The position numbers and the translations under genes are program-made. This document shows, piece after piece, positions 3 to 7,862 of a stretch of DNA of 7,884 bases (positions are counted from its first letter, which is position 1; each line of letters opens with the position of its first letter). The notes under the pieces are model-generated. The model saw nothing but the letters and a program-made list of their open reading frames with translations. It did not search any database and was not told where the DNA came from. The stretch lies in assembly GCA_900552605.1 (NCBI GenBank), contig USAR01000060.1:1-7884 (forward strand). The letters run 5' to 3'. The stretch is from an uncultured Oscillospiraceae bacterium (lineage in GTDB: Bacteria; Bacillota; Clostridia; Oscillospirales; Acutalibacteraceae).

Positions 3-59
3 AAAAACTATTTTTATTATTACTTTAATAAGACGGACTTTCTGTACAAAACCTTTTAA
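3..59 (+). CDS. Candidate Tyr/Phe-rich leader peptide (5' end outside window)
   Basis: Seen: reading from base 3, the frame encodes KNYFYYYFNKTDFLYKTF and stops at TAA 57-59. Five of the 18 residues are Tyr and four are Phe, with six aromatic codons in a row at 9-26. The upstream codon ends in GC and no start codon lies in the window, so the start must be further upstream. Known: attenuator peptides such as those of enterobacterial pheA and pheST carry runs of the regulated amino acid and lie just before a terminator. Inference: a ribosome stalling on the Tyr/Phe run would sense charged tRNA-Tyr and tRNA-Phe and control the operon behind it. Caveats: T-rich DNA favours TAT and TTT codons, and frame 1 is also open to a TAA at 73-75, so this could be the tail of an unrelated upstream gene. 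Confidence 0.55.
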   Translation, partial: KNYFYYYFNKTDFLYKTF

Positions 60-94
60 AACCTCGTTGTTTTAAATATTGTATGGTAAGCCCG
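34..94 (+). promoter_or_regulatory. Candidate antiterminator RNA structure competing with the terminator
   Basis: Seen: bases 34-49 pair with 79-94 at 14 of 16 positions. The exceptions are an A37 x C91 and a T41 x T87 mismatch, and two of the pairs are G-U. This helix is capped by a perfect 8-bp hairpin, 55-62 with 69-76, with a 6-base loop at 63-68. The 3' part of the long helix (88-94) is the same sequence as most of the left arm of the terminator hairpin (88-96), so both cannot form at once. Inference: it acts as the antiterminator. A ribosome paused on codons 9-26 would leave 34-49 free and allow it. A ribosome at the stop codon 57-59 would cover 34-49 and release 88-96 for the terminator. 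No folding energy was computed. Confidence 0.58.
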
Positions 95-140
95 CATTTT
101 CCGTTTGCTTTGTTGCAAGGATTTGCGGGCTTTTGTTTTT
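88..140 (+). terminator. Rho-independent terminator, probably an operon attenuator
   Basis: A perfect 9-bp GC-rich stem pairs AAGCCCGCA (88-96) with TGCGGGCTT (124-132). The loop contains a small inner stem, TTGC 105-108 with GCAA 115-118. A T-rich tract, TTTTGTTTTT, follows at 131-140. The hairpin ends only about 20 bases before the ribosome binding site of the first structural gene, leaving little room for a promoter between them. Transcription of the operon must therefore read through it, which is the arrangement of a transcription attenuator. The alternative is the ordinary terminator of an upstream gene with leaky read-through. Confidence 0.8.
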
Positions 141-2488: not shown

Positions 2489-3493
2489 ATGATAATAAAC
2501 GTTAAAACCTCTAAAGGACAATACCCCATTTATCTTGAAAGGGGATTTTTAAAAAAAGCAGGCACTGTATTGCCGCAGACAGGGCGCGCGCTTATTGTTA
2601 CAGACAGCGGTGTTCCAAAGGAATATGCGGAAACAGTGGCATCACAACTGCCGAATGCCGCAATACACACAGTGCCTAAAGGCGAGAGCAGCAAGTGTAT
2701 TAGAATTTATGCAGAACTGCTTGAGGCTTTGTGCAAAGACGGCTTCACCCGCTCCGATTGTGTTATTGCTGTCGGCGGCGGTGTTGTGGGCGACCTTGCA
2801 GGCTTTGTTGCTGCCACATATTTAAGAGGTGTTGCGTTTTATAATATTCCCACCACCGTTTTATCTCAGGTAGATTCCTCTATCGGAGGCAAGGTGGCAG
2901 TTGACTTTTGCGGATATAAAAACAACGTCGGTGCTTTTTATCCGCCAAACGCGGTTATAATCGATTCCGACGTTTTAAATACTTTGCCGAGTCGGCAGAT
3001 TTCAAACGGTCTTGCAGAAGCGGTCAAAATGTCGCTGACAGGCGACAGCGAGCTTTTCGGGTTGTTTGAGAACGGTAATATTACGGAAAATATTGATAAG
3101 ATTATCGAAAAATCACTGCTTTATAAAAAATCTGTTGTGGAGCAGGACGAAAGAGAATCGGGACTTCGCAGGGTACTTAATTTCGGCCACACAATAGGTC
3201 ACGCAATTGAAAGCCGCGAGGGATTCGACGGACTGTACCACGGCGAATGTGTTGCTCTCGGAATGTTGCCTATGTGCTCAAAGGAAGTGCGGCAGAGGCT
3301 GATAAATGTTTTAAAGCGCCTTAATTTGCCGTATGAAATACCTTATAAAGCAGAAGAGCTTATTGAAAGAATGAAGCACGATAAAAAAATGAGCGGCAGA
3401 GAGATAACCGTTGTAAAAGTGGAAAAGATTGGCGAGTTTGTTTTAAAAACAGAGCCGTTTACAGAGTTTGCAAAAGAGGTGGAAATGCTTTGA
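2489..3493 (+). CDS. aroB: 3-dehydroquinate synthase
   Basis: Cyclises DAHP to 3-dehydroquinate, the second step of the shikimate pathway, using NAD and a divalent metal, in the cytosol. Seen in the 334 residues: the NAD-binding GGGVVGD at 96-102, PTTVLSQVDSSIGGKVAVD around 121-139, KNNVGAFYPP at 144-153, and the three expected metal ligands E177 (in GLAEAVK), H233 (in NFGHTIGHAIE) and H250 (in HGECVALGM). The length is slightly below the family's usual 350 or so residues, with short termini and no motif lost. It starts 33 bases after pheA behind a strong ribosome binding site. Its stop overlaps the TTG start of aroC by 4 bases (TTGA). All key residues are present, so it should be active. Its substrate requires a DAHP synthase that is not in the window. 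Confidence 0.96.
   Translation: MIINVKTSKGQYPIYLERGFLKKAGTVLPQTGRALIVTDSGVPKEYAETVASQLPNAAIHTVPKGESSKCIRIYAELLEALCKDGFTRSDCVIAVGGGVVGDLAGFVAATYLRGVAFYNIPTTVLSQVDSSIGGKVAVDFCGYKNNVGAFYPPNAVIIDSDVLNTLPSRQISNGLAEAVKMSLTGDSELFGLFENGNITENIDKIIEKSLLYKKSVVEQDERESGLRRVLNFGHTIGHAIESREGFDGLYHGECVALGMLPMCSKEVRQRLINVLKRLNLPYEIPYKAEELIERMKHDKKMSGREITVVKVEKIGEFVLKTEPFTEFAKEVEML
3475..3482 (+). promoter_or_regulatory. Ribosome binding site that fixes the TTG start of aroC
   Basis: AGAGGTGG lies inside the end of aroB, 7 bases before TTG 3490. It supports TTG as the start; the next in-frame ATG at 3511 would remove the conserved TFGN segment. Confidence 0.7.
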
Positions 3494-4575
3494 AAAATAC
3501 ATTCGGTAATATGCTTAGCGTTACAATTTTCGGAGAGAGTCACGGAGCTGCCGTCGGGGCGGTATTGGACGGGCTGCCGTCGGGAATTGAAGTTGACGAA
3601 GAATATATTAAAGAGCGTTTAAGCTTGCGCCGACCGAGCGGCGCTGTATCAACCGGCAGAGCCGAGCCGGACGAATTTATTATTGAAAGCGGAGTTTATC
3701 GCGGCAAAACAACAGGCACACCGCTTTGTATTGTTATCCCCAACACCTGCCAGCGCAGCGGCGACTATGAATCGCTGCAAAATAAACCGCGTCCGTCGCA
3801 TGCCGATTTTGCGGCGCATATCAGATACGGCGGTTTTGAAGATCCGCGTGGTGGCGGTCATTTCAGCGGCCGCATAACAGCAGCTTTGGTTGCGGCAGGG
3901 GCAATTGTGCTGCCTGAGCTTAAAAGGCAGGGTGTTGAAATCGGTTGTCATATCAAGCGCTGCGCAGGAATAGAGGACAGGGGATTTGAAGATTTCGGCG
4001 AGGATTTTAAAAAGCTGTCAACTGCCGCATTCGGTGTGCTTGACGACAACAAAAAAGCACAGATGATTGAAAGAATCAAGCAGGCAAAAGCCGAGACAGA
4101 CAGCGTTGGAGGCATTTTGGAAACGGCGGTAATCGGCATGCCTAAAGGTGTCGGAGAGCCGTGGTTTGATTCTGTTGAGAGTGTTTTGGCGCACGCGCTT
4201 TTCAGCATACCTGCCGTAAAAGGTGTTGAGTTTGGCAGCGGATTCGGCTTTGCCGATATGAAAGGCAGCGAGGCTAACGATGCTTTTATGTTTGAAAACG
4301 GCGAAGTAAAAACCAAAACCAATCACAACGGCGGAATAAACGGCGGCATTACAAACGGAATGGAGATACTTTTTTCTTGCGCCGTTAAGCCGACTCCCTC
4401 AATCGGTAAGGAGCAGGCTACAGTTGACCTTAAAAGTATGCAAAACACCACTATTAAAGTCGGTGGCAGGCACGACCCTTGTATTGTTCACAGAGCACGT
4501 CCTGTTGTTGAAAGTGTTGCTGCACTTGCGCTTTACGATTGCTTGCTTACAGGCGGCAAGGCGGGGTGCAGATAA
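3490..4575 (+). CDS. aroC: Chorismate synthase
   Basis: Converts EPSP to chorismate by anti-1,4 elimination with reduced FMN, the last shared step. There are 361 residues, a normal bacterial length. Seen: TFGN then FGESHG (14-19) with H18, RRPSGAVSTGR (47-57), GTP at 76-78, RPSHAD (101-106) with H104, GGGHFSGR (121-128), DSVGG and NHNGGINGGITNG, followed by KPTPSI and the RHDPCIVHRARPVVES signature near the C terminus. The two histidines match the family's conserved catalytic pair. The usual GGGRSSAR is GGGHFSGR here, a divergent but plausible variant. Translation starts at TTG, overlapping the aroB stop as TTGA, and its TAA shares one base with the next ATG (TAATG). This suggests coupled translation. 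FMN reduction would need a separate reductase, since no reductase domain is fused. Confidence 0.95.
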   Translation: MKNTFGNMLSVTIFGESHGAAVGAVLDGLPSGIEVDEEYIKERLSLRRPSGAVSTGRAEPDEFIIESGVYRGKTTGTPLCIVIPNTCQRSGDYESLQNKPRPSHADFAAHIRYGGFEDPRGGGHFSGRITAALVAAGAIVLPELKRQGVEIGCHIKRCAGIEDRGFEDFGEDFKKLSTAAFGVLDDNKKAQMIERIKQAKAETDSVGGILETAVIGMPKGVGEPWFDSVESVLAHALFSIPAVKGVEFGSGFGFADMKGSEANDAFMFENGEVKTKTNHNGGINGGITNGMEILFSCAVKPTPSIGKEQATVDLKSMQNTTIKVGGRHDPCIVHRARPVVESVAALALYDCLLTGGKAGCR

Positions 4576-5825
4576 TGGAATACGGCTTAATTGCAAATAC
4601 ATTAAAGCACAGCTTTTCAAAAGAAATACATGCGCTTTTTGCCGATTACGATTACACTTTAAAAGAGCTTGATGAGGACAGCGTTAGGTCTTTTATGATG
4701 GAACGCAATTTTAAGGCGATAAACGTTACAATACCTTATAAACAAACCGTTATTCCTTATCTTGACAGCATTTCGGAAACGGCAAAGGGAATCGGTGCTG
4801 TTAACACAGTTGTTAATAAAAACGGCAAGCTCTTTGGATTTAATACCGACTTTTTCGGAATGAAAGCATTGCTGCTTCACGCAGGAATTGATATAAAAGC
4901 AAAAAAGGTTGCCGTGCTCGGCACCGGCGGCACAAGCAAAACGGCAAACTATGTTGCAAAAATCCTTGGTGCAAAAGAGGTTTTAACTGTCTCAAGAAAT
5001 CCGAAAATCGGACAAATAGGCTATGATGAGCTTTACGAAAGCCATACCGATACCGATGTTATCATCAACACAACACCTGTCGGAATGTTTCCGAAAACCG
5101 ATGCGTGCGCAGTTGAAATTGACAGCTTTAAAAATTTAAGCGGCGTTGCGGATGCAATTTATAACCCGCTGAGAACAGAGCTTGTGCTAAATGCCGAAAA
5201 ACGTGGTATACCTGCTGCCGGCGGACTGTATATGCTTGTTGCACAGGCAGCTGAGGCTGTGGAAAAGTTTATCGGCAAAAAAATACCGGAAGAGCAAATA
5301 GATGCGGTTTATAACTCGGTAAAGTGTCGAAAGCAGAACATTGTGCTTTACGGTATGCCGGCGAGCGGTAAGAGCACTCTCGGCAGTCAGCTTGCAAAGG
5401 AATTGGGAAAAAGCTTTTTTGACACCGACGAACTTATTGAAAAGCGAGAAAACAAAACTATAACTCAGATTTTTTCGGAAAGCGGTGAACAGGGCTTTCG
5501 CAAAACGGAAGCGGAGGTTATTGCAGAAGTTGCGGTATCGACAGGTGCGGTAATTGCAACGGGCGGCGGCGCAGTGCTTAATTCAAGAAATATTTTTGAG
5601 CTTTCAAAAAACGGTATTGCGATTTTTATTGACAGACCTCTTGAAAAGCTGCACGGCACCCCCGACAGACCCCTTGCAAAAAATGCAGAGCAGTTGGCGG
5701 CTTTGTATAACGAGCGAAAAAAGCTGTATTTGAATGCAGCAGACATATGCTTTTTGCCGACTGATGATATAAACGATAATGTTAAGAGGCTTAAAGTAAT
5801 TGCGAAAAGCGGTGTGAAAAAATGA
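4575..5825 (+). CDS. Shikimate dehydrogenase-shikimate kinase fusion (AroE-AroK)
   Basis: One uninterrupted frame of 416 residues joins two successive shikimate enzymes. Residues 1-250 are AroE (3-dehydroshikimate to shikimate): S13 and S15 in HSFSKEIH, NVTIPYK with T52 and K56, GAVNT with N77, GFNTD with D92, the nucleotide loop GTGGTSKT at 116-123, NTTPVGM at 165-171 and GLYMLVAQA with Q224. Residues 255-416 are AroK (shikimate to shikimate-3-phosphate): Walker A GMPASGKST at 260-268, DTD at 283-285, FR with R309, GGG at 330-332, lid arginine R365 in TPDRPLA and R381 near the end. The linker is only a few residues. ATG 4575 is preferred to an in-frame TTG at 4539, since AroE proteins begin near this YGLI motif. 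It overlaps aroC by 1 base and aroA by 4. Confidence 0.93.
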   Translation: MEYGLIANTLKHSFSKEIHALFADYDYTLKELDEDSVRSFMMERNFKAINVTIPYKQTVIPYLDSISETAKGIGAVNTVVNKNGKLFGFNTDFFGMKALLLHAGIDIKAKKVAVLGTGGTSKTANYVAKILGAKEVLTVSRNPKIGQIGYDELYESHTDTDVIINTTPVGMFPKTDACAVEIDSFKNLSGVADAIYNPLRTELVLNAEKRGIPAAGGLYMLVAQAAEAVEKFIGKKIPEEQIDAVYNSVKCRKQNIVLYGMPASGKSTLGSQLAKELGKSFFDTDELIEKRENKTITQIFSESGEQGFRKTEAEVIAEVAVSTGAVIATGGGAVLNSRNIFELSKNGIAIFIDRPLEKLHGTPDRPLAKNAEQLAALYNERKKLYLNAADICFLPTDDINDNVKRLKVIAKSGVKK

Positions 5826-7018
5826 ATGTAACAATTAAAAAAGGCACGGCTTGCGGCAGAATTGTTGCCCCTCCTTCAAAAAGTATGGCACACCGATATT
5901 TAATTCTTGCAGCGTTTTGCGGTGATAACTGCACAGTAAGCGGTGTTGATTTTTCAAAGGATATTAAAGCAACACTTAACGGACTTGAGAGCCTCGGCGC
6001 GAGGTTCTCGGTTGATGGTTATAAGGTTATCGCGCAAAAGGCGGTGGGCAGCGTTGATAATGCTTTGGTCGATTGCATTGAAAGCGGCAGCACGCTAAGG
6101 TTTTTAATTCCTATTGCGGCAGCGCTTGGGATAAAAACAAAATTTGTCGGCGCAAAAAGACTTTTTGAAAGACCGCTTACGGTTTATGAAGAAGTGTTTA
6201 AAAAAAGCAAAGTGTCCTTTTCTTGCAATGAGAACGGCGCTGAGGTAAGCGGTAGGCTGAATTCCGACTGCTTTAGCGTGCGCGGAGATATAAGCAGTCA
6301 ATTTATAACAGGGCTTATTTTTGCACAGCTTTTGACAAACGGCGGTGAGATAAAGCTTACAACACTCCTTGAAAGCGCACCGTATGTTGAACTTACACGT
6401 CAGGCGGTGTCGGCTTTCGGCGGCTTTGTTGAAAAAAACGACAACGGTTTTATTGTGGAAAACCGCAGGCTTTCTTCGCACGATATAGTTGTTGAGGGCG
6501 ATTATTCAAATGCTGCGTTTTTCTTTGCCCTTAATTCGCTCGGCGGTTCGGTTACTGTTGAGGGACTTGAAACCGACAGCCTGCAGGGCGACGCAGTTTG
6601 CAAAGAGTATTTGAAAAAAATCGAAAAGGGACACTGCACGCTTGATATTACCGATTGCCCCGATTTAGCTCCGGTGCTTTTTGCTGTTGCAGCGGCAAAG
6701 GACGGTGCGAAGTTTTTTGGCACGGCAAGGCTGAGAATAAAGGAGAGCGACCGCGGTGCGGCAATGTCGGAGGAGCTTAAAAAGTTCGGTGTAAAGACAG
6801 TTATAGACGATAACGAAATTGAAATTTTCGGCAATGCCAAGTCTCCGACGTCACCGCTTTTCTGCCACAACGATCACCGAATTGCAATGGCTCTCAGTGT
6901 TCTTTGCACGCTTTTCGGAGGCACGCTTTTCGGTGCGGAGTGTGTTGAAAAAAGCTTTGGCGGATTTTTTAAAGCCTTGCAAAAACTTGGAATAGAGGTT
7001 AAGACAGATGAAACTTGA
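5822..7018 (+). CDS. aroA: 3-phosphoshikimate 1-carboxyvinyltransferase (EPSP synthase)
   Basis: Joins shikimate-3-phosphate and PEP to form EPSP, the enzyme that glyphosate inhibits. There are 398 residues, slightly short for the family. Seen: PPSKSMAHR (17-25) with K20, S21 and R25; ESGSTLRF (87-94) with G89 and R93; R117 in ERPL; SSQF at 158-161; PYVELTRQ; VEGDYSNAAFF from 224; catalytic D281 in DCPD; RIKESDR (305-311) with K307, E308, D310 and R311; DHRIAM at 351-356; and K377 in KSFGGFF. These match E. coli K22, R124, D313, K340/E341 and K411. Two variants stand out: F94 replaces the Pro101 position and Gly380 replaces the usual Pro of KTFP. There is no clear ribosome binding site. The ATGA overlap with the fusion gene suggests re-initiation by terminating ribosomes. 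Confidence 0.95.
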   Translation: MNVTIKKGTACGRIVAPPSKSMAHRYLILAAFCGDNCTVSGVDFSKDIKATLNGLESLGARFSVDGYKVIAQKAVGSVDNALVDCIESGSTLRFLIPIAAALGIKTKFVGAKRLFERPLTVYEEVFKKSKVSFSCNENGAEVSGRLNSDCFSVRGDISSQFITGLIFAQLLTNGGEIKLTTLLESAPYVELTRQAVSAFGGFVEKNDNGFIVENRRLSSHDIVVEGDYSNAAFFFALNSLGGSVTVEGLETDSLQGDAVCKEYLKKIEKGHCTLDITDCPDLAPVLFAVAAAKDGAKFFGTARLRIKESDRGAAMSEELKKFGVKTVIDDNEIEIFGNAKSPTSPLFCHNDHRIAMALSVLCTLFGGTLFGAECVEKSFGGFFKALQKLGIEVKTDET

Positions 7019-7862
7019 TAATAACACTAACATACTTATTGTGGGTCTGGGACTTCTCGGCGGAAGCTATGCCAAGGCCCTTAAAAAACGCGGCTTTCAT
7101 GTTAACGCAATAACACTGAGGCAAGAGGATATAGACTATGCTTTGCAAAACAATATGATTGATAAGGGGAGTGCTTTTGTTGACAAAACCCTTGTTTCAA
7201 ATGCAGACCTTGTTGTATTTGCGCTGTATCCGCACACGTTTTTAAGCTGGATAAAGGATAATCAACATCTTTTTAAAAGCGGAGCAATTATCACCGATGT
7301 AACAGGTGTTAAGTGCGGTGTTGTTTATGAAGTGCAAAATATGTTGAGAGGCGATGTTGAATTTATTGCAGCTCACCCTATGGCGGGCAGAGAACGCTCG
7401 GGAGTTCGGCACAGCGACGATTCCGTTTTCAGCGGTGCGAACTACATTGTAACTCCGACAGAGAAGAACACACCGCAGGCAATTGGACTTTGCTCAAAGC
7501 TCGGGTACACCTTAGGGTTTTCTGCCGTATCTCAGCTCGACCCCGAAACGCACGATAAGATGATTGCGTTTCTCTCGCAGCTTACGCACTGCATTGCGGT
7601 AACGCTGATGTGCAGCAGCGACAATGAACACCTTGTAAAATATACAGGAGACTCATTTAGAGATCTTACAAGAATTGCAAAAATCAATGCCGATATGTGG
7701 TGTGAGCTGTTTTTGATGAATAAGGGAGCATTGCTTAACAGTATGGAGTCTTTTGAAAACAGCTTTAATAGGCTTAAAACCGCAATAGAAACCGATGACA
7801 GTGAAACCATAAAAGAAATGATGATACTTTCAACCAAGCGCCGCGAAGCGTTTGACCGATAA
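7008..7862 (+). CDS. tyrA: Prephenate dehydrogenase (or arogenate dehydrogenase)
   Basis: Oxidatively decarboxylates prephenate to 4-hydroxyphenylpyruvate for tyrosine. There are 284 residues with an N-terminal Rossmann fold, VGLGLLGGSYAKAL at 12-25 (GxGxxGG), then ITDVTGVK (95-102), catalytic H123 in HPMAGRERSG, HD at 182-183, SQLTH at 190-194 and FRDLTRIA (217-224), where R222 matches the prephenate-binding arginine. No C-terminal ACT domain is present, so this shorter form probably lacks domain-based Tyr feedback. At the end of the second beta strand, T36-L37-R38 replaces the acidic residue usual in NAD enzymes, hinting at NADP use. The substrate could also be arogenate; sequence does not decide. 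It overlaps aroA by 11 bases, with GAGG at 6995-6998, 9 bases before the ATG. Confidence 0.94.
   Translation: MKLDNNTNILIVGLGLLGGSYAKALKKRGFHVNAITLRQEDIDYALQNNMIDKGSAFVDKTLVSNADLVVFALYPHTFLSWIKDNQHLFKSGAIITDVTGVKCGVVYEVQNMLRGDVEFIAAHPMAGRERSGVRHSDDSVFSGANYIVTPTEKNTPQAIGLCSKLGYTLGFSAVSQLDPETHDKMIAFLSQLTHCIAVTLMCSSDNEHLVKYTGDSFRDLTRIAKINADMWCELFLMNKGALLNSMESFENSFNRLKTAIETDDSETIKEMMILSTKRREAFDR

Follow-up and report, generated by a model that had tools for sequence, protein, structure and literature searches.

A probable leader-peptide attenuator with tyrosine and phenylalanine codons ahead of an aromatic amino acid operon in gut Clostridia

The stretch of DNA analyzed here (7,884 nt; hereafter the window) carries an operon of seven genes on the forward strand, preceded by a short leader. 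The first gene encodes a PLP-dependent aminotransferase of the PRK06836 family (178–1380; NCBIfam NF005305, 558.8 bits against a cut-off of 376), with AAAGGAG at 161–167 as its likely ribosome-binding site. It is followed by genes for a pheA-type chorismate mutase/prephenate dehydratase (1373–2455; best matches under curated cut-offs), 3-dehydroquinate synthase AroB (2489–3493; TIGR01357 above cut-off), chorismate synthase AroC (3490–4575; NF003793 and TIGR00033 above cut-off), a shikimate dehydrogenase–shikimate kinase fusion (aroE-aroK; 4575–5825; matches under curated cut-offs), EPSP synthase AroA (5822–7018; TIGR01356, 246 bits, under the cut-off of 287) and prephenate dehydrogenase TyrA (7008–7862; matches under curated cut-offs). 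The sole Rfam hit in the window, a group II intron fragment within tyrA (7565–7700; 17.4 bits, cut-off 34), was taken as a chance match.

The window opens inside the leader reading frame, the start codon, ribosome-binding site and promoter of which are all upstream of it; the leader promoter was therefore out of view in a consensus promoter scan of the window. The visible 3′ part of the frame (3–59, forward strand; ...KNYFYYYFNKTDFLYKTF*, stop codon TAA at 57–59) contains the putative sensor codons Tyr-Phe-Tyr-Tyr-Tyr-Phe (9–26), and Phe and Tyr (F/Y) codons are enriched at the same offsets across the family described below. Within the same frame lies the 5′ arm of an antiterminator (region 2; 34–49), the 3′ arm of which (region 3) occupies 79–94, and between the two arms folding places an inner hairpin (55–76; 55–62 with 69–76) that holds the leader stop codon. 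The terminator has its 5′ arm at 88–96 and its 3′ arm at 124–132, and ends in a U tract (131–140, TTTTGTTTTT). All of these elements are on the forward strand.

A preliminary description of this DNA had reported a helix paired at 14 of 16 positions that shares bases 88–94 with the terminator, and the sequence bears this out: the antiterminator helix (34–49/79–94) contains two G-U pairs among its 14 and mismatches at A37–C91 and U41–U87, and the terminator stem (88–96/124–132) is paired at 9/9 positions before the U tract, with bases 88–94 belonging to both stems. The same description had called the two hairpins mutually exclusive, which holds for the shared part (34–40/88–94), to which strict exclusion is limited, but not for 42–49/79–86, which is compatible with the terminator; both are present in the minimum free energy fold of 34–140. 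Compared with dinucleotide shuffles, the fold of 34–140 has a z-score of −4.5 (0/200 shuffles as stable), that of the antiterminator segment (32–96) −3.5 (0/200), that of the terminator (71–140) −3.6 (1/200), and that of 1–177 −3.2 (1/200). Leader-peptide attenuators are recognized by a short translated frame with consecutive codons for an amino acid end product, an intrinsic terminator ahead of the first gene, and an antiterminator that overlaps the 5′ arm of the terminator; all three are seen here, the frame being putatively translated and the antiterminator having an exception in the family (locus L002).

Relatives were collected through the aminotransferase, a search with which gave 19 loci in genome contigs and matches in 77/398 genomes from a family sample built around genome G011; 30 loci were fetched from the family sample, four of which were copies of earlier loci. 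With a distant match (L019) omitted, the region upstream of 44 distinct loci (18 + 26) was viewed by eye as a first set. A frame with a Phe/Tyr run together with a terminator is present upstream of 21 of these 44 loci, and of none of the other 23. All 21 leader-bearing loci head an aminotransferase-pheA operon, as do 12 of the leaderless ones (L005, L006, L007, L009, L021, L026, L040, L043, L044, L046, L047, and L048), such that 21 of 33 aminotransferase-pheA operons in the first set have the leader; the remaining 11 leaderless loci show no pheA beside the aminotransferase. Two leaderless loci, L010 and L013, are on contigs that stop shortly after the aminotransferase gene. Complete leader frames with a ribosome-binding site occur in relatives, and in 21/21 leader-bearing relatives of the first set a TTGACA-17-TATAAT-like promoter (at most two mismatches allowed in the TATAAT-like hexamer) is located 58–76 bases 5′ of the leader start, which places the leader at the start of the operon transcript.

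A covariance model (R1) that includes the antiterminator helix was built from an alignment of 20 relatives (A2), with the window and L002 omitted. Although blind to the window, R1 recovers positions 2–139 of it with a score of 66.8 bits (E 4e-9; 26 sources were searched, and the next-best match has an E of 5.3), and because this recovery comes from relatives alone, the arrangement at 34–140 is not a chance fold. R1 misses L002. At that locus (L002:3017–3185) a leader (MMNVAVVRFYYCRQSGFSAFAEMR) and terminator are present and the antiterminator is absent from the family register; a candidate helix of 11 bp, recognized by eye, stops a few bases short of the terminator arm.

The element is spread across many genomes, with the counts that follow being lower bounds since only about 7–10 candidates were scored per genome. 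In the family sample, R1 matches at least 31 of 398 genomes (E ≤ 0.05), and in an order sample at least 33 of 394 (E ≤ 0.01); a second model built from 59 sequences (R2) matches at least seven of 391 genomes in a class sample and at least two of 299 in a phylum sample, both of the latter also being in the order sample. Across these four overlapping samples there are at least 64 distinct genomes (31, then 29, four and zero new ones), and match rates, as lower bounds, are about 8% in the family and order samples, falling to 2% in the class sample and 1% in the phylum sample. The leader-bearing records include two labelled Oscillospiraceae bacterium and four labelled Clostridia bacterium, the latter from ruminant cecum or rectum.

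The 61 loci fetched from these matches comprise 19 training members of R1 and 42 that were absent from the training set of whichever model recovered them (38 with R1, four with R2). Eight genes (the seven of the window and a DAHP synthase gene) were searched for nearby, and at 61/61 loci the nearest of them downstream on the same strand is that for the aminotransferase (31), pheA (16) or DAHP synthase (14; L070, L073–L078, L082, L084, L085, L088, L095, L107, and L108), i.e., three different first genes stand behind one element. The gap between attenuator and gene has a median of 23 bases and is within 100 bases at 59/61 loci, with 164 and 290 bases at the other two; the spacing of 290 bases from terminator to first gene is at L004:7711–8000. 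The combination singled out in the preliminary description, in which a leader peptide with Tyr and Phe precedes an antiterminator/terminator switch and then an aromatic operon, is conserved as a unit in relatives. Genome G279 has the attenuator before a separate pheA near a contig end (L065, G279:C66), and its aminotransferase-pheA operon (L026, G279:C28) is leaderless, a split that a binning error may explain. At L061:1–176, a Gut-1 RNA (RF01706, above cut-off) and a tRNA are located upstream of an attenuated pheA operon, on the opposite strand.

Covariation was assessed in an alignment of 59 distinct sequences (A5) made from sequence only. In the antiterminator (16 pairs), 73.2% of 943 cells are paired, vs. 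32.0–39.0% when slid by 1–3 columns; in the terminator (nine pairs), 89.3% are paired, vs. 28.6–43.1% when slid. By comparison with shuffles that ignore kinship, the antiterminator has 99 cells changed on both sides (56.0 expected, SD 8.1; reached by 0/500) and 13 pairs changed on both sides (matched by 7/500), and the terminator has 36 both-side changes (18.0 expected; 0/500), its score for further pair types being equalled by 36/500. A smaller alignment (A1, 22 sequences) agrees with A5 on both helices. On a rough PheA tree (at most 100 residues, 56 tips; L053, L076 and L077 missing), 11 antiterminator pairs undergo 19 double changes between standard pairs, vs. 0–8 when slid, together with 58 changes that break pairs; for eight terminator pairs there are 6 double changes, vs. 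0–5 when slid, and hence, once kinship is considered, the antiterminator retains good support and the terminator weak support. The least regular antiterminator positions in A5 are the five outermost pairs (unpaired in 25–42 of 59) and the sites of the two mismatches in the window (U41–U87, unpaired in 32/59; A37–C91, in 13/59). At least four pairs form between the antiterminator arms in 57/59 members, and the stop codon falls between the arms in 58/59. Both helices thus show the compensatory changes that the preliminary description had set as a test, with L002 as one relative that has no antiterminator helix in the family register.

These data also bear on whether the element might be either the plain terminator of a gene further upstream or a partial one that acts constitutively, with the helix 34–49/79–94 having arisen by chance in an A+T-rich leader. 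Such a view would account for the finding that the terminator of the window wins at equilibrium (see below), and for a simple scan in which terminator-like sites are not commoner in the window than in shuffled sequence (11 vs. 10.2); 88–96/124–132 is not among the 11 sites, as the scan takes loops of 3–8 bases and this stem encloses 27. However, it does not account for an antiterminator that covaries in a fixed register or for the conservation of the F/Y frame, and a promoter right before the leader in 21/21 first-set relatives marks the 5′ end of an operon rather than the 3′ end of another gene. We therefore regard a plain or constitutive terminator as highly improbable.

The coding signal is found in one frame. 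Over six codons (−23 to −8, counted back from the GG conserved in the arm), 280 of the 354 codons of the 59 members encode Phe or Tyr in the leader frame, which for this count was chosen only after the first ribosome-folding simulation; they comprise TTT (111), TAT (108), TAC (56), and TTC (5), and there is no stop codon at these positions. Over the same six codons, the counts in the remaining two frames are 74 and 70 for F/Y, with 4 and 31 stops. F/Y codons occupy −17 and −14 in 57/59 members each and −11 in 56/59, and the codon at −14 is Tyr in 53/59. After the F/Y run the peptide often ends in Asp-Cys-Leu/Pro (A5 columns 37–48), a tail that is most likely dictated by the antiterminator arm, which its codons form.

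An attenuator-like element could instead respond to translation in general, such as to antibiotics or ribosome speed, rather than to Tyr and Phe. Firmicutes do have frames thought to sense antibiotic-stalled ribosomes, with uORFC-6-1 (PMC8632094) and Bacillus subtilis vmlR (PMC9226507) as examples. A general signal, however, would not explain why F/Y codons are kept at −17, −14 and −11, nor why an aromatic pathway or aminotransferase gene is the nearest searched gene downstream at every one of the 61 loci, which makes this alternative very unlikely, if a shade less so than a plain terminator. The same evidence favors an attenuator that senses charged Tyr- or Phe-tRNA, which we consider likely.

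Amino acid genes of Firmicutes are usually regarded as T-box territory. The leader might accordingly be a T-box or a riboswitch that binds tRNA or a metabolite directly, with the short frame being incidental; T-boxes usually control amino acid genes in this phylum (PMC2965389), and they are common in related genomes (RF00230 in 20/20 searched, with 6–13 matches each). Yet Rfam gives no match, T-box or otherwise, over the leader of the window or those of 12 family members, no T-box reaches the gathering score at 15 of the 23 leaderless loci (including all 12 with pheA), and among the matches listed for the 20 genomes none is within 10 kb of the aminotransferase. Further, no conserved aptamer is visible, the stretch that separates the arms being variable in length and sequence, and the enrichment in F/Y codons is confined to the leader frame. 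Direct binding of tRNA or a metabolite is consequently about as improbable as a plain terminator, and a translated sensor remains the preferred reading.

The effect of ribosome position was modelled by folding the 59 members with an assumed footprint of −15 to +12 around the A site, at two stages: with the terminator arm full, or with its last four bases withheld. Values of P are the mean of the best three pairs, and therefore partial helices score for both folds. The shared antiterminator pairs form without a ribosome in 58/59 members (four bases withheld) and 33/59 (full arm), and they are kept with a ribosome at the first F/Y codon (59/59 and 39/59, respectively) or at the middle one (58/59 and 44/59), whereas only 15/59 members retain them when the ribosome stalls at the last F/Y codon (four bases withheld). 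With a ribosome inside the arm the antiterminator is lost in 59/59 and the terminator forms in 49–59 of 59. It had been claimed that a ribosome at the stop codon covers 34–49; this fails, since such a ribosome covers 44% of the arm in the window, 20% on average, and at least half in only 9/59 members. The shared pairs still form in this state in 47/59 members (four bases withheld) and 17/59 (full arm), with a P of 0.14 in the window (four bases withheld).

Constrained folding of this kind, also proposed in the preliminary description, thus gives a divided result: a ribosome within the arm abolishes the antiterminator (kept in 0/59), but with the full arm free the terminator of the window has a P of 1.00 at equilibrium in every ribosome state. 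With the last four bases of the arm withheld, both folds appear in the window (antiterminator 0.73, terminator 0.94–0.95). For a mid-run stall with the full arm, P exceeds 0.5 for the terminator in 45/59 members and for the shared antiterminator pairs in 44/59, these being measures that overlap. Equilibrium folding was accordingly set aside as proof of a switch; it supports a block by a ribosome in the arm, and yields no stable antiterminator in the window. Classical attenuators of the trp type have a protector hairpin, formed by segments 1 and 2; in the folding of the 59 members, no upstream segment was seen to pair with region 2.

Taken together, 3–140 comprises the end of a Tyr/Phe leader-peptide frame and, after it, an antiterminator and a terminator with bases 88–94 in common. 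These likely serve ribosome-dependent transcription attenuation of the aromatic operon, a reading to which we assign a probability of roughly 0.87. Under a shortage of charged Tyr- or Phe-tRNA, a ribosome would stall in codons 9–26 and leave 34–49 free; once 79–94 has been made, the free arm would pair with it, 88–94 could not start the terminator, and RNA polymerase would read on into the operon. When the tRNAs are charged, the ribosome would cross 34–49 while 79–132 is being made, the arm would be unable to pair, and the terminator would form, with transcription stopping near 135–140. Passage of the ribosome over the arm, rather than arrest at the stop codon, appears to be the better account of how the antiterminator is blocked: as the arm lies in the reading frame, passage over it would terminate transcription. 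Given that the finished terminator of the window wins at equilibrium, the switch would be kinetic, with the order of events being that inferred above. The folding, in having no protector hairpin, also predicts read-through (ON) as the default state of an untranslated leader.

Among the F/Y codons, the Tyr codon at −14 relative to the conserved GG (21–23 in the window) is predicted to act as the main sensor. Under the assumed footprint, an A site at −14 puts the leading edge of the ribosome at −2, immediately short of the arm, whereas with the A site at −11 the ribosome touches the arm and at −8 it enters it. Codon −14 would therefore be the last at which a stall leaves the arm free, which fits the presence of Tyr there in nearly all members, and the reach of the footprint into the arm fits the loss of the shared pairs in most members when the stall is at the final F/Y codon. 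More broadly, the locus may represent an undescribed class of attenuator, found mainly in a single order of gut Clostridia and governing the aromatic pathway in a place at which one would expect a T-box, in which passage over the arm (and neither arrest at the stop codon nor a protector hairpin) terminates transcription, the Tyr at −14 is the main sensor, the untranslated state is ON, and three different first genes are controlled; as a whole this proposal is tentative, and we would put it somewhat short of an even chance.

The preliminary description had put the system forward as a candidate for an undescribed one, and the searches made here agree with this. Rfam searches of the window (E up to 5) and of 12 family members (E up to 1) gave no leader family (Phe_leader, which we take to be RF01859, and Trp_leader, presumably RF00513, included) and no match over the leader. 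Comparative surveys of attenuation reportedly exist by Vitreschak and by Lopatovskaya. A literature search that covered few subscription papers found no published description of the element. The family and its lineage therefore appear to be new, while the mechanism is one already known. The element precedes a shikimate–Phe–Tyr operon of gut Clostridia that are known mainly from metagenome bins, and it yields a covariance model for annotation and a predicted shut-off point for the pathway; it would also provide a natural case of an attenuator with a translated antiterminator arm, and a prediction that concerns a single codon.

As in Escherichia coli pheL-pheA and trpL, the peptide is rich in the regulated amino acid, the position of the ribosome would select the hairpin, and biosynthetic genes follow. 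Unlike in those systems, there is no Rfam leader match and no upstream segment pairing with region 2, and region 2 is inside the reading frame with the stop codon between the arms (58/59). In the literature consulted, leader-peptide attenuation in Firmicutes is reported for histidine genes, plus one motif suggested for aroF in Acholeplasma. The latter, uORFC-13-1, is described in PMC8632094 as a proposed attenuator upstream of aroF, with 24 representatives in Acholeplasma and environmental DNA and “at least one phenylalanine”; compared by this description only, it resembles the present family in having a frame with one or more Phe codons and a terminator before a DAHP synthase gene. In PMC2965389, a His leader is reported in bacilli, and its authors state that no leader-peptide system was known beyond Proteobacteria and Actinobacteria, save ermC. 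His leader attenuators with three to five His codons in a row are given in PMC9413887 (2022). As described in these two sources, the His leaders of Firmicutes are similar in being Gram-positive leader-peptide attenuation in place of a T-box, with a row of codons and a terminator/antiterminator pair, and differ in their codons (histidine), genes (his or hisS) and lineages (bacilli including the B. cereus group, Peptostreptococcaceae, Lutispora, and Erysipelotrichales). The T-box (RF00230), which occurs elsewhere in the same genomes, has the same physiological task in Firmicutes; unlike in the T-box, the sensor here would be a translated frame.
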